A DNA stretch of 39,467 nucleotides from an uncultured Spirochaetales bacterium (GTDB taxonomy: Bacteria; UBP6; UBA1177). Location of the stretch: the NCBI GenBank assembly GCA_902774115.1, contig CACYHH010000010.1:1-39467 (forward strand), written 5' to 3'. Position 1 is the first letter of the stretch; the number at the start of each line of letters is the position of its first letter. The notes under the pieces are model-generated. The model had not been told where the DNA came from. It did not search any database and saw nothing but the letters and a program-made list of their open reading frames with translations. Below are positions 31,754 through 37,373 of this stretch, one piece after another. A program made the position numbers and the translations under genes.

Positions 31754-32182
31754 ATGATTTTTGAAAATTTCCAGAATTTCGGACCCGCTCTTTGCCTCGG
31801 CCTCGCGGCAATCGGAAGCTCGATCGGCTGCGGTCTTGCAGGTATGACTTCTCATGGCGCAATGGCGAAAGTTGAAGAAGGTCACGCAAAATTCGTAGCA
31901 CTTTCCGCAATGCCAGCGTCTCAGTCGATTTACGGATTTGCGCTCATGATCATCCTTCAGGGCGCACTTAAAGCAGAAAACGATTTCGCTATCTTCGGAA
32001 TCGGCCTTGCTTGCGGTCTTGCATTCATGGTCAGCGCAATTTTCCAGGGCAAAGCCTGCTCCAGCGCAATTCTCGCAGTTTCCAAGAAACCGTCTGTTTT
32101 CGGTATGAGCTTCGCGGCTCCCGGTATCGTTGAGTCGTTCGCGCTTTTCGCTCTCGTCGGCGGGATCATGATGGCTTCGTAA
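31754..32182 (+). CDS. atpK: V-type ATPase proteolipid subunit K
   Basis: The membrane rotor-ring subunit; 142 residues, four helices formed by two duplicated hairpins. The ion-carrying Glu127 (PGIVESFALF) is in helix 4. Helix 2 lacks an acidic residue and has PASQSIYGF. Compared with the Na+-binding residues established for Enterococcus hirae NtpK (Leu61, Thr64, Gln65, Gln110, Glu139), the corresponding residues here are Met53, Ser56, Gln57, Gln98 and Glu127, with constant offsets within each hairpin. This favours Na+ coupling, which is inference. GGGAG precedes ATG 31754. It is the last gene before a strong terminator. Confidence 0.95.
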   Translation: MIFENFQNFGPALCLGLAAIGSSIGCGLAGMTSHGAMAKVEEGHAKFVALSAMPASQSIYGFALMIILQGALKAENDFAIFGIGLACGLAFMVSAIFQGKACSSAILAVSKKPSVFGMSFAAPGIVESFALFALVGGIMMAS

Positions 32183-32191
32183 GCCGGCAAA

Positions 32192-32261
32192 CCCCTCAGC
32201 CGCTTTGCGGCAGCTCCGACCTCTCCGTCACTACGTGACACCTCCCCTACTTCAGGGGAGG
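32192..32261. repeat. Three-hairpin intergenic repeat
   Basis: Immediately after the V-ATPase K stop are three tandem stems: GCCGC/GCGGC (in 32199-32211), GTCAC-TAC-GTGAC (32227-32239) and CCTCCCCT-ACTTC-AGGGGAGG (32241-32261). The first stem with its flanks repeats the element at 24494. The arrangement resembles REP/MITE-like CCCTCAG...CAGCTCC repeats. A further CACCAAG/CTTGGGTG stem lies at about 32278-32304. Confidence 0.7.
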
Positions 32262-32330
32262 CTAGAAGCGGTAAAAACACCAAGCTTCAGGGGCGCCTTG
32301 GGTGGTAAGGACTTAAGAATCTTTTTTAGA

Positions 32331-32357
32331 AGGGGGTCTTCGGACCCTCTTTTTTTT
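32331..32357 (+). terminator. Intrinsic terminator of the V-ATPase operon
   Basis: AGGGGGTC (32331-32338), tetraloop TTCG and GACCCTCT (32343-32350) form an 8-pair stem with one G-U, followed by eight T (32350-32357). UUCG is an extra-stable loop. It acts only on plus-strand transcripts. Confidence 0.88.
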
Positions 32358-32377
32358 GTCTTGAACTCTCCGAAAAG

Positions 32378-32405
32378 TTGACTCTGACTTAAAGAGGACT
32401 AACAT
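32378..32405 (+). promoter_or_regulatory. Candidate promoter of the structured RNA
   Basis: TTGACT (32378-32383) and TAACAT (32400-32405) have a 16-base spacer. The predicted start (about 32411-32413) coincides with the first base of the long closing stem at 32413. Confidence 0.5.
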
Positions 32406-32411
32406 TTTCAA

Positions 32412-32573
32412 GCCTGCCCGGTGCGTGAGCTTGGGGCGTTAGAAGTTTTTTCCTATTTAAATTTTGGGGTTTGTACTTACTACCGTGAAAGTTGATCGGT
32501 TCGGCTTTCCCCACCTGTGAGCACAGGATAAAGCTTGTTTCGGGCCACGGCTGCGGCGGGTTTCTTGTTATTT
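32412..32573 (+). ncRNA. ssrS: Candidate 6S-like regulatory RNA
   Basis: The gap after the V-ATPase terminator folds around a long-range stem. CCTGCC (32413-32418) pairs with GGCGGG (32555-32560), CGGT (32419-32422) with GCTG (32550-32553), and CGTG (32424-32427) with CACG (32546-32549). That is 14 pairs with two single-base bulges. Three pairs are G-U, which would be A-C on the minus strand, so the plus strand is favoured. Inside are AGCTT/AAGCT, a 3'-side hairpin CCTGT-GAGC-ACAGG (32514-32527) and an apical TGGGG/CCCCA arm, leaving a large central bubble. This layout, the roughly 150-160 base length and the CTGCGGCGG 3' strand resemble 6S RNA, which binds the sigma70 holoenzyme. A T-rich tail follows (32561-32573). 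The family assignment is by eye. Confidence 0.5.
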
Positions 32574-32597
32574 CCCGAAAATTCAGATGTTTTGAGG

Positions 32598-34277
32598 TTA
32601 TTTTTTTGAGCCTTTCTTCTTGTCTACAAGATGTGTGTAGAGCGTTCTTCTTATCTTTTTTGTCGAAGTTTTCTGGAATTCTTCGGGATGTATCCTGATT
32701 TCCGAAATTTTTGCATATGCCGGAAGAGTTTCATTCAGCTCGTCGCGGTTCTGCTGCATGATCCCGGCAAGCTGCTCTTCCGTGACGTTTTCCTCTTTCA
32801 TTTTGTCGTAATCGGGATAAACGAACGCTATCAGCCGTCCTTTGCCTGCATCGAGAAGGAGCGATTCGGAAACAAACGGCATATAGTTGATTTTGAGTTC
32901 GATCTCTTCCGGATAGATGTTCTGCCCGGACGAAGAAAGAATCATGTTTTTCAGTCTTCCGCAGATAAAAAGGAACCCGTCTTTGTCGATCCTGCCCAGA
33001 TCGCCGGTATGAAGCCAGCCTTCGCTGTCGAGGACTTCAGCGGTTTCCTTCTCCATTTTGTAGTAGCCGCTCATTATGTTTTCGCCTTTGACGCAGATCT
33101 CGCCTACCCCTTTTTTGTCGGGATTGTCGATTTTTGCAGTCAAGTAAGTCATGATTTTTCCGCAGCTGCCGATTTTGCGGTTATCTGCGTAGTCTGTGTA
33201 GGCAATAAGCGGTGCGCACTCGGTCATTCCGTATCCGGTCGTGAATCTGACGCCTGATTTGAGAAGGAACGATTCGATTTTCGGGTTGAAAGCGGCTCCG
33301 CCGGAGATGACTTCGTAGCACTTTCCGCCGAAGAAATCGCTGATCCCCTTCCCTATTTTCTTCATTATTATCTGTCTGATTCCGGGAATCGCCATAAGAA
33401 TCCTCATTTTCTTGGTCTCAAGCAGCGGACGGATCTTCGAAGTGTATATTTTCTCAAGGATGAGCGGAACTGAAATTACAAGAAAGGGCTTAGCTTCGCC
33501 GAAAGCCTTGATAAGAATTTTAGGTGTCGGCGTTCTGCTCATAAAAATTATGTGAAGTCCTCTTGCAACCTGAAGAAGAAAGTCGAAAGCGCATCCGAAA
33601 CAGTGCGCCAGCGGAAGGAACGAAACCATCGCCTCCCCGCCTTTGGGAAGGGAATCAATGGCATATTGGATGTTCGCCATAAGACAGTTGTGGGAAATCA
33701 TTACACCTTTTGAAAAACCGGTCGTTCCCGATGTGTAGACTATCGTCGCAAGATCTGTCTTTGCAGGAATTTCAAAAGAAAGCGTTTCTTTCGTAACGGC
33801 CTGCGTTTTAACAAAATTATCAATAATTCCGGCAACTTTTTCATTCAGATTTTCTTCTTTTGAAAACGCCACAGACATATCTTCGAGTTTGAAAACGGCT
33901 TCGACTTCCGGAAGCTGCGCGAAATCAAGTTTTTCTTCTATTATGAGTTCAGAAGCGAAAAAGAGCTTTGAATCGGAGTGGTTGACAAGATGGTGGATCT
34001 CTTCAGCCGTAAAATCGTTGAGAAGCGGAACGATTACAGCACCGTAAGTCACTGTTGCAAGGTAGGTTACAGCCCAGTTTACCGAATTTTTGCCGCAGAG
34101 AGCGATCTTGTCACCTTTTTTTATGCCAAGAGCTTTGAATATTTCATGTAACTCTTTTATTTTATTGGCTGTTTCTCCGAAAGTAAGAGGCTCTGAACCG
34201 TAATCGCTGAAACACGGTTTATCCCAATTCAGTTTAAAGGAATCTTCAAAAACCTTTACGAGATCTTCTTTCAACAT
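32598..34277 (-). CDS. Long-chain fatty-acid--CoA ligase-like AMP-binding protein
   Basis: An adenylate-forming enzyme that activates a carboxylic acid, probably a fatty acid, to its CoA or ACP thioester; 559 residues. The motifs are YTSGTTGFSKG (181-191), GYGMTECAP, HTGDLG, and the hinge region GRLKNMILSSSGQNIYPEEIE. The catalytic C-terminal lysine motif is QKTSTKKIRR, and the protein ends in a Lys-rich tail. NMIL-S-GQNIYPEEIE is the form seen in long-chain acyl-CoA or acyl-ACP synthetases. The start is ATG 34277 after CCGGAGGGG; the upstream TTG overlaps that site. It is a single gene with its own promoter, divergent from the acidic lipoprotein gene. Chain length and acceptor are not determinable. 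Confidence 0.9.
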   Translation of the reverse strand: MLKEDLVKVFEDSFKLNWDKPCFSDYGSEPLTFGETANKIKELHEIFKALGIKKGDKIALCGKNSVNWAVTYLATVTYGAVIVPLLNDFTAEEIHHLVNHSDSKLFFASELIIEEKLDFAQLPEVEAVFKLEDMSVAFSKEENLNEKVAGIIDNFVKTQAVTKETLSFEIPAKTDLATIVYTSGTTGFSKGVMISHNCLMANIQYAIDSLPKGGEAMVSFLPLAHCFGCAFDFLLQVARGLHIIFMSRTPTPKILIKAFGEAKPFLVISVPLILEKIYTSKIRPLLETKKMRILMAIPGIRQIIMKKIGKGISDFFGGKCYEVISGGAAFNPKIESFLLKSGVRFTTGYGMTECAPLIAYTDYADNRKIGSCGKIMTYLTAKIDNPDKKGVGEICVKGENIMSGYYKMEKETAEVLDSEGWLHTGDLGRIDKDGFLFICGRLKNMILSSSGQNIYPEEIELKINYMPFVSESLLLDAGKGRLIAFVYPDYDKMKEENVTEEQLAGIMQQNRDELNETLPAYAKISEIRIHPEEFQKTSTKKIRRTLYTHLVDKKKGSKK

Positions 34278-34307
34278 TTTCCCCTCCGGAAGCAAAAAAC
34301 CTGTGAA

Positions 34308-34335
34308 AAATAGCGTTTTTAATGCTTCGTGTCAA
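34308..34335 (-). promoter_or_regulatory. Candidate promoter of the acyl-CoA ligase gene
   Basis: On the minus strand a perfect TTGACA (34335-34330) and TATTTT (34313-34308) have a 16-base spacer. It is back-to-back with the lipoprotein promoter at 34364-34391. Confidence 0.5.
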
Positions 34336-34363
34336 CAATAGAACCGCTATTTATTGTTTTAAC

Positions 34364-34391
34364 TGGACAAAAAGGGCTCTTTTTGTATTAT
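34364..34391 (+). promoter_or_regulatory. Candidate promoter of the lipoprotein-lyase-flavodoxin unit
   Basis: TGGACA (34364-34369) and TATTAT (34386-34391) have a 16-base spacer. The two divergent -35 boxes are 28 bases apart. No operator-like palindrome is evident between them. Confidence 0.5.
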
Positions 34392-34426
34392 CGCGCGGTT
34401 TTATTAAGTTTTTTGGTCAAAGCAAT

Positions 34427-35791
34427 ATGAAAAAGATTGTTTTTTCAGTTTTAGCACTGATTTTATTGGTATTTTTCGTTTCATGCGAAGATTCAGCCCT
34501 GCCCGATCTGCCGGAGATGGATGAGTCGATGGATGTCGATGCTTTTGAAATAGGTGACGAGGATGCAACTCCCGGTTCCGAGTCAGAACCTGATGAGGAA
34601 AACGGCGGAAACGATGCGGATAACCAGGAAACTCCTGATTCTGAGAGTCCCGATTCCGAAAAACCGGATACTGAAACTCCTGATGAAACGCCTGAAACTC
34701 CCGACGAAGAAGTTTCTGAACCTGAGATAGCGGCTTCACACCTCATTGTGGCGACAGTCGGCGGATACGACGTTCCGATGAGCGGTCACGTTTACTATGC
34801 AAAAGATGAAAAACTCGACACTTTTAAAGAAATTCCGGTTGAAGGCGGCATGGGAAGTTCAGACGGCGCAGATCTCAATGCAGCTGCATGGGAAAACGGT
34901 TTCGCAGTTGTCGGAAGGCACGATTCTTCTTCTCTTTACTTTTTCACCCGGAATTTTGAATTTGAGCAGGAAATTCAAGTAAAACCAGATACTTACATAA
35001 ACATGCAGGACATGGTTCATAACCCGTTCAAAGATGAATTCATCGTTTCGGCCCTCAATTTCGATACCGATTCAAAAACGGTCTTTTCCAACAAGCTCTT
35101 CATCTTCAAAAAAGATTCGCCGGAAACGGCATCAACACTGGAAATAAGCGATAACGAGTCGGCAAGCCCTGCAAAAATGAAGGTCGTCGGCAAAAAACTT
35201 TTCGTTGCACTGCAGAACCTCGAAAACAACACTTCGGCAAAAGGCGAAATCGCAGTTGTTGACCTTGAAAATTATTCTGTCGAAAGGATAACTCTGCCGA
35301 CAACGAACCCGACAGGAAAGATAGAATACAACAAAAATGTCGATAAAAACCACATCTATCTTACGACGACCGGTAACTGGAAACAGGGTGACGGCGCACT
35401 TCTTCAAGTAAATATCGACACTTACGAAGTTAAGAAAGTTCTAAGCGAATCTGAAGAGGAAAACAATATTCTTGACGGTGATTTCGTCGATCTCTCGATT
35501 GCCGATAACGGTGATTTTTACATCATTTTTTCAAATAATATCCTCTACAATGACAACAGTCTGCTGCTTTACAAACCGAAAGAAGGCAACATTTCAAAAA
35601 TAGATTCCAAAATCAATGCATTTGCGGCAAATCCGATCGATTACAGCTCGGTCAGCGGAAAAATTTACTATTTTGTCGATGAAAAATCGGATACTTACCT
35701 GAAATCTTTCGATACGAAGACAAAGGCTGACGAGAAGATTCTTCTTGATTTCGGTCCTGCCGCGTTAAGAGTGAAATACGACTACAAGTGA
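34427..35791 (+). CDS. Lipoprotein with acidic linker and propeller-like domain
   Basis: A 454-residue exported lipoprotein of unknown function. The signal sequence ends in a lipobox FVSC (Cys20), followed by Glu-Asp. Residues about 24-105 are a low-complexity linker dominated by Asp, Glu, Pro, Ser and Thr, with PDSE/PDTE/PDET repeats. The remaining about 350 residues form repeated beta-rich units such as FAVVGRHDSSSLYFF, KLFVALQNLENNTS and GDFYIIFSNNILYNDNSLLLY, suggesting a beta-propeller or YncE-like fold. No catalytic motif is recognised. The start at 34427 is fixed by the signal peptide, although the Shine-Dalgarno site is weak. The ammonia-lyase gene follows after seven bases, so co-expression is likely. 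It could bind a ligand or peptide at the outer membrane. Confidence 0.8.
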   Translation: MKKIVFSVLALILLVFFVSCEDSALPDLPEMDESMDVDAFEIGDEDATPGSESEPDEENGGNDADNQETPDSESPDSEKPDTETPDETPETPDEEVSEPEIAASHLIVATVGGYDVPMSGHVYYAKDEKLDTFKEIPVEGGMGSSDGADLNAAAWENGFAVVGRHDSSSLYFFTRNFEFEQEIQVKPDTYINMQDMVHNPFKDEFIVSALNFDTDSKTVFSNKLFIFKKDSPETASTLEISDNESASPAKMKVVGKKLFVALQNLENNTSAKGEIAVVDLENYSVERITLPTTNPTGKIEYNKNVDKNHIYLTTTGNWKQGDGALLQVNIDTYEVKKVLSESEEENNILDGDFVDLSIADNGDFYIIFSNNILYNDNSLLLYKPKEGNISKIDSKINAFAANPIDYSSVSGKIYYFVDEKSDTYLKSFDTKTKADEKILLDFGPAALRVKYDYK

Positions 35792-35798
35792 GGGATAA

Positions 35799-37373
35799 AT
35801 GAAAATTGTAAACGGAAACAGTCTGACAATCGAAGATGTATGCGATGTCGCGTATAAAAACGAGGAAGTTGCCCTTCCGGAAGAACGCGAATTCTGGGAA
35901 ACTTTAGAAAAATCACGGAAATTCCTGGAAGATTACGTAAAAACCGGCGTTCCGGTATATGGCGTCACGACCGATTTCGGCGACAGCTGCGACAACCAGA
36001 TAAGCATTGACAAGGCTGGCGAACTCCAGCGGACGATCTGCACATATCACGGTATCGGTCTAGGCCCGAAATTCGACCGCGTCACCGGAAGAGCAGTAGT
36101 TCTTGCGCGCCTCAACAGCAACGTAAAAGGCGGTCACTCGGCAATTCGCCCTGAACTTGCCAAAATGATGCTTACTCTGCTCAACAAAGACATAATCCCT
36201 GTGATTCCGCAGCTCGGTTCTGTCGGTGCTTCGGGAGACCTCACACCGCTCAGCTACCTTGCGGCAGTCATCATGGGTGAGCGCGATGTTTACTACAAAG
36301 GAAAAATCGTTCCGGCGGCGGAGGCTTTTAAAGCGGAAGGGATAAAACCGCTTCCGATCGAAGCGAAAGAAGGCCTGGCCCTTATGAACGGAACGAGCGT
36401 AATGAGCGCGGTCGCGGCTCTTGCATGGAAAAAAGCTGAAAGATTAGCCAGAATTTCAGACTTTTTAACCGCTGTGACATCTGAAATCACGCAGGGAAAG
36501 GACACCCCTTTCGCAGAAAAGGTGAGCGAAATCAAAAACCACCGCGGGCAGTGCGATTCTGCGGCATATATACGCGAAATCATTAAAGATTCCAAACGCG
36601 TTTTCAGATACGAGGATTTCCTTAAGAATAAAATCGATTCGATCGAAAACAAAGGTTTCATCAAGCAGCAGAATAAAATCCAGGACAGATACTCCATCCG
36701 CTGCGCGCCGCAGATAACTGGCGTTTACCGCGACACTCTGCGCTTTGCACGAGAGCTGATAACGGAAGAACTCAATTCAGCCAACGACAATCCCCTTGTC
36801 GATATTGAAAGCAGCAGGCTTTTCAACACCGGAAACTTCTACGGCGGCCACATCTGCGCTGCATGCGACTACCTGCGGACGGCTTTGGCAAATATCGCCG
36901 ATCTTTCCGACAAACAGGCAGAAGTTATAATCGACGGCAAATTCAACGGACTCACTGAAAATCTGATCCCTTTCACTCCCGAAAATCATCCGAGAGCAGG
37001 ACTACGGCTCGGTTTCAAGGCAGTCCAGATAACGATAAGCGCAATCCGCGGCGAAGTTATGACATACTCCTTCCCGGTCAGCATCACAAGTGCGCCGACA
37101 GAGGCTTTGAATCAGGATAAAGTTTCGATGGGAACGATCTCTGCACGAAAACTTGCCGAGCAGACTGACCTCGTATTTTTGCAGTTCGCGGCGCACATCC
37201 TCGCCGCAATGCAGGCGGTCGACCTTGCGGGAAAAGACGAATTCTCCTCATTCACGCAGAAAATCCACACCGAAATCAGGAAAATCAGCGCATTCGTTGA
37301 AGACGACCGCGCCCTCGACAAAGAAGCCGAAGCAGTCGCCGAGTGGCTGAAAACAACTGAGATTTTCGGGTAA
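35799..37373 (+). CDS. Aromatic amino acid ammonia-lyase (HAL/PAL/TAL superfamily)
   Basis: An MIO-dependent lyase removing ammonia from an aromatic amino acid; cytoplasmic, 524 residues. Ala144-Ser145-Gly146 in GSVGASGDLTPLSYLA forms the MIO cofactor. Tyr54 (VYGVTTDFG) is the catalytic tyrosine, and NGTS, RYSIRCAPQ and SANDNPLV are superfamily motifs. By closest default it would be called HutH, but the substrate positions do not fit. The selectivity pair reads Tyr83-His84 rather than Ser-His. The segment NQDKVSMG (438-445) lacks the Glu of NQEDHVSM in histidine ammonia-lyases and looks like the NQD form of Phe/Tyr lyases. No hutU, hutI or hutG is present. I infer Phe or Tyr (or another aromatic) as substrate. 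It lies between the lipoprotein and flavodoxin genes. Confidence 0.85.
   Translation: MKIVNGNSLTIEDVCDVAYKNEEVALPEEREFWETLEKSRKFLEDYVKTGVPVYGVTTDFGDSCDNQISIDKAGELQRTICTYHGIGLGPKFDRVTGRAVVLARLNSNVKGGHSAIRPELAKMMLTLLNKDIIPVIPQLGSVGASGDLTPLSYLAAVIMGERDVYYKGKIVPAAEAFKAEGIKPLPIEAKEGLALMNGTSVMSAVAALAWKKAERLARISDFLTAVTSEITQGKDTPFAEKVSEIKNHRGQCDSAAYIREIIKDSKRVFRYEDFLKNKIDSIENKGFIKQQNKIQDRYSIRCAPQITGVYRDTLRFARELITEELNSANDNPLVDIESSRLFNTGNFYGGHICAACDYLRTALANIADLSDKQAEVIIDGKFNGLTENLIPFTPENHPRAGLRLGFKAVQITISAIRGEVMTYSFPVSITSAPTEALNQDKVSMGTISARKLAEQTDLVFLQFAAHILAAMQAVDLAGKDEFSSFTQKIHTEIRKISAFVEDDRALDKEAEAVAEWLKTTEIFG

Follow-up and report, generated by a model that had tools for sequence, protein, structure and literature searches.

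A short, divergent 6S RNA gene predicted in an uncultured bacterium of the UBP6 phylum

The gap between the V-ATPase and acyl-CoA ligase genes

The window (the whole stretch of 39,467 nucleotides analysed here, from an uncultured Spirochaetales bacterium assigned to the GTDB lineage UBP6; UBA1177) contains a gap flanked by the gene for subunit K of a V-ATPase (31754-32182, plus strand) and by a convergent acyl-CoA ligase gene (32598-34295, minus strand). The gap holds the elements listed below, where RF00013 is the 6S RNA model of Rfam and R1 is a covariance model built solely from 17 RNAs of the phylum.

32328-32362, plus strand: intrinsic terminator with an 11-pair stem, a TTCG loop and a T run, found at 32328-32353 and predicted to insulate the RNA gene from upstream transcription
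32378-32405, plus strand: sigma-70-type promoter, TTGACT-N16-TAACAT, the sole promoter-like site in 32150-32700 (one, against 0.2 expected)
32412-32566, plus strand: predicted 6S RNA (ssrS), approximately 150-155 nt, its ends placed from the promoter and from the RF00013 and R1 matches
32412-32438, plus strand: 5' strand of the closing stem, pairing with 32536-32561
32443-32469, plus strand: central region, 5' side (AAGUUUUUUCCUAUUUAAAUUUUGGGG), supported by the Rfam alignment and by conservation
32482-32500, plus strand: apical arm with an ACCG/CGGU core and two pairs with double changes
32509-32530, plus strand: 3' strand of the central region, containing the conserved CCCCACCU and the hairpin 32514-32518/32523-32527
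32536-32561, plus strand: 3' strand of the closing stem; ACGGCUGCGGCGGG lies close to its end, and a U-rich tract comes after it

Both the promoter and the upstream terminator had been proposed in a preliminary description of this DNA, and both are present. A TTGAC-N16/17-TANNAT element is located upstream of the RNA in all 17 of the f1 and f2 genomes examined, at a nearly constant distance. The terminator is the only such site nearby, although by count alone one would be expected by chance. A coding alternative for 32412 to about 32566 was rejected, as the overlapping open reading frames encode only 22-68 amino acids and conservation tracks the paired columns.

Several other observations concern the surroundings of the RNA. 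A dispersed palindromic repeat with the core CACCTCCCCTACTTCAGGGGAGG occupies positions 32194-32263, between the V-ATPase K gene and the terminator preceding the RNA; this repeat is found in 12 copies in the genome at up to three mismatches, while its reversed control has none. On the other side, the RNA and the ligase gene are approximately 35 bases apart (32566-32600), the minus strand carries no consensus terminator, and antisense run-in of ligase messages into the RNA gene could occur. Further downstream, the open reading frame at 34322-35791 resembles a lipoprotein with an acidic spacer rich in Asp, Glu and Pro after the signal peptide, and a search of Pfam and NCBIfam assigned it to no significant family. 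That at 35799-37373 belongs to the aromatic amino acid ammonia-lyase/aminomutase family and scores below the cut-offs curated for histidine ammonia-lyase and the listed sister families.

Fold and covariation

The plus strand is predicted to fold as a single long rod (-58.9 kcal/mol, z -1.85, with 5 of 200 shuffles as good), while the fold of the minus strand (z -0.40) is no better than that of shuffles. Three or more G-U pairs are formed on the plus strand, in agreement with the earlier argument that three such pairs favour it. Since fold energy alone is weak evidence, homology and covariation have to decide. In a consensus structure of 41 pairs, derived from a 20-sequence alignment that was fitted to the model and leans towards structure, 97.8% of the cells are paired, and double changes occur in 16 of the 41 pairs, against a shuffled mean of 6.2 (none of 500 shuffles reaches 16). 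When the partners are slid by one to three columns as a control, pairing drops to 40-56% of the cells. Aligning 17 sequences with plain MAFFT, without structure fitting, still leaves double changes in 11 of 40 pairs. Pairing is kept at the homologous loci, as expected from the preliminary description. A chance fold in intergenic DNA, which the fold energy taken by itself (z -1.85) would accommodate, has a negligible probability and is already refuted by the long-range covariation, the conservation across families and the E-values of the homologues.

The individual elements of the rod largely correspond to those first described. The long-range stem opening at about 32412 is found at 32412-32425/32548-32561, with 13 consensus pairs, and runs inward to 32438/32536, with pair probabilities of 0.83-1.0 over the whole stem. 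Its helices 1 and 2 show double changes in 10 of 23 pairs, with 95-98.5% of the cells paired, and most of the covariation signal comes from the inner closing stem (8 of 10 pairs). The hairpin on the 3' side (32514-32518/32523-32527) is paired in all 20 sequences, and in one of them (L016) CCUGU/ACAGG has been replaced by CCUAC/GUAGG through two compensatory pairs. The apical arm, formed by 32482-32485 and 32497-32500, is present and shows double changes in two pairs. On the other hand, the proposed pairing between AGCTT (32428-32432) and AAGCT (32531-32535) was rejected as a conserved element, since only 74% of its cells are paired, with no double change and no better result than shuffles, and both strands have other supported partners (32429-32438 with 32536-32545, and 32444-32449 with 32530-32535).

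The large central bubble of the preliminary description is retained in part. An open region with the 3'-side hairpin is present, but in the fold predicted for the window RNA it appears fairly closed, and there 32452-32454 pairs with 32525-32527 at a probability of approximately 0.7. The AGG at 32525-32527 has an alternative partner in the CCU of the 3' hairpin (32514-32516, probability approximately 0.24). Because this CCU and that at 32452-32454 are both nearly invariant, covariation cannot choose between the two partners; in the folding model, the hairpin and the closed CCU/AGG form may represent alternating states.

Affiliation with the 6S RNA family and gene neighbourhoods

When the window stretch was compared with all Rfam families, RF00013 matched 32408-32566 on the plus strand over its full length (model positions 1-187 of 187) with 38.8 bits and an E-value of 1.3e-6, and scanning the whole 2.5-Mb genome with RF00013 returned a single match (E 2.2e-6). 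The score lies below the gathering cut-off of 46.4 bits, which is a curation rule and not a biological trait; at the gathering thresholds of Rfam only a tRNA is called in the window, and 6S RNA is not. Among the other Rfam families, none scoring below threshold on the window stretch has a meaningful E-value. R1 matches the same RNA at 32410-32566.

In the phylum, RF00013 yields a match at E<=0.001 in 20 of 28 genomes, exceeding the cut-off in one (G026, a sister-family copy with 49.4 bits). R1 adds three genomes of family f3 (63-74 bits, E 9e-13 to 1e-15), at whose loci RF00013 scores 30-33 bits in agreement with R1 in place and strand. Together, the two models cover a 6S RNA in 23 of the 28 genomes (that of the window and 22 others); both are without a match in G005, G010 and G024 (65-77% complete), as well as in G018 and G022 (91-92% complete). 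Most records whose V-ATPase K is the same as the window's, or very close to it, are metagenome bins from rumen or gut, and three records carry the label UBP6.

The reciprocal comparison was made by running R1 on 242 genomes, 214 of them outside the phylum. Four matches were obtained in these 214 genomes at E<=0.01 (E 1.2e-8 to 0.005), each of them at the site of an RF00013 gene that passes the cut-off (109.9, 107.2, 68.5, and 49.5 bits), the starts and ends given by both models agreeing within two bases. As such a coincidence is not credible by chance in genomes of 1.4-2.6 Mb, homology with 6S RNA is settled. Canonical 6S genes of other phyla (L002, L003) also have in common with the window RNA the CCCACCU...AGG hairpin region, a CGGC motif close to the 3' end and a similar fold.

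A different rod-shaped RNA that binds the polymerase and is not a 6S homologue would have a precedent in Ms1, a polymerase-binding RNA described as distinct from 6S (PMC11077062), and a score under the Rfam cut-off would be in line with it. However, the full-length alignment to RF00013, the reciprocal matches falling on accepted 6S genes, the lack of a meaningful E-value for any other Rfam family and the zapA neighbourhood in a sister family, described below, make such an Ms1-like RNA extremely unlikely. Thus, judging from sequence comparison, positions 32412 to about 32566 of the plus strand almost certainly constitute a 6S RNA (ssrS) gene, a stand-alone unit of approximately 155 nt predicted to be read rightward from its own sigma-70-type promoter. 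What had been presented as a probable 6S RNA is supported by RF00013, covariation and the reciprocal model.

This gene is genuine and unannotated, and it joins a known family as a short, divergent member. With RF00013 6S RNAs it shares the rod with a long closing stem, the central CCCCACCU and 3'-side hairpin, the apical arm, the terminal GCCUGC and GGCGGG motifs, ACGGC, and a single-copy gene with its own promoter. It differs from them in its length in the genus (approximately 155 nt, against 187 model positions), its shorter apical arm, its score under the gathering cut-off and, in this order, its position away from zapA. The predicted RNAs, whose ends are themselves predictions, measure approximately 150-155 nt in the genus and 155-188 nt in relatives, and the window RNA would therefore be at, or slightly below, the lower limit of the 160-200 nt range given for 6S RNA (PMC8414754). 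No paper naming both 6S RNA and UBP6 was found in the literature collection searched, which is weak evidence of absence.

The V-ATPase/acyl-CoA ligase gap to which the RNA was first assigned is conserved on one side within the genus. A convergent acyl-CoA ligase gene follows the 6S gene in eleven genomes of the genus, with other arrangements in other genera, whereas V-ATPase K precedes it in two genomes only, those of the window's species and one other. Within the genus, the upstream neighbour varies by species (L007, L012, L013, L015, L017-L019) while the ligase stays; by eye, some of the upstream open reading frames resemble Lon protease, a PIN-domain protein or DUF3990. That the RNA is a structured 3' UTR or attenuator of V-ATPase subunit K or of the convergent ligase, rather than an independent RNA gene, is suggested by its position 230 bases past the V-ATPase K stop and approximately 35 bases from the ligase stop, and by the ligase side being kept in the genus. 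Nevertheless, this is very unlikely, given the rarity of V-ATPase K upstream, the different neighbours on both sides in other genera and families, the terminator between V-ATPase K and the RNA, the conserved promoter of the RNA, a minus strand that folds no better than shuffles, and 6S models that match the plus strand only. The changing neighbours already refute it as a general account.

In the sister family f4, the RNA lies a few bases after the ZapA gene in the order zapA, RNA, RNase Y; ZapA was identified there by Pfam with E 1.2e-10 (L014) and 9.6e-5, just under the cut-off (L004). The 6S RNAs of this family (L004, L014, L022) resemble the window RNA in matching RF00013 (35-49 bits) with agreeing ends, and differ from it in their length of 186-188 nt and in their site between the zapA and RNase Y genes. 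A zapA-ssrS linkage has been described for Proteobacteria (PMC7641849). The window's own genome has no convincing copy of ZapA (best 15.6 bits, E 0.04), which fits the absence of a zapA-6S neighbourhood there. From these gene orders, the 6S gene probably moved away from zapA, its older neighbour, in the ancestor of the window's order.

Proposed mechanism and significance

In most bacteria, RNA polymerase is sequestered by a small RNA, 6S RNA. Such RNAs resemble an open promoter and capture the housekeeping holoenzyme, which is set free again when pRNAs are made on the 6S template (PMC8414754, PMC12005410). By homology with the 6S RNAs of E. coli and B. subtilis, the window RNA would form a rod consisting of a long closing stem, an open central region that bears the 3'-side hairpin, and an apical arm; this rod would mimic an open promoter, bind RNA polymerase in its housekeeping-sigma form and hold it back when growth slows. 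Once nucleotides return, the polymerase would copy a short pRNA from the RNA, starting opposite about U32456 with the predicted sequence 5'-AUAGGAAAAAAC, and the resulting refolding of the RNA would release the enzyme. The genome encodes a housekeeping-type sigma factor of the RpoD type (350 bits). From the same homology we infer that the window RNA is expressed, binds polymerase, starts its pRNA at this position and plays this physiological role. As for the start site, the Rfam alignment places U44 of E. coli 6S RNA, where its pRNA begins, at about U32456, which is base 45 counted from the predicted start of the window RNA; the base varies between genera, and we infer this position to be the pRNA start here.

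The two partners of the central AGG could also provide the 6S RNAs of this order with a built-in switch, in which the choice of partner would set polymerase binding or release without, or before, pRNA synthesis, although such a switch, conceived from the folding model, is rather unlikely. An alternative central pairing, comparable in idea, is known from the central-bulge collapse helix of B. subtilis 6S-1 RNA (PMC12005410), whereas the one in the window RNA is predicted in the absence of pRNA.

The picture of how 6S RNA works is unchanged by this gene. Default Rfam annotation would report no 6S RNA for nearly all genomes of this uncultured phylum of the ruminant gut, and a 20-sequence seed with covariation would extend the RF00013 family model. 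6S RNA is now documented in a poorly known uncultured phylum, where one family has the gene beside zapA and another order has it elsewhere.
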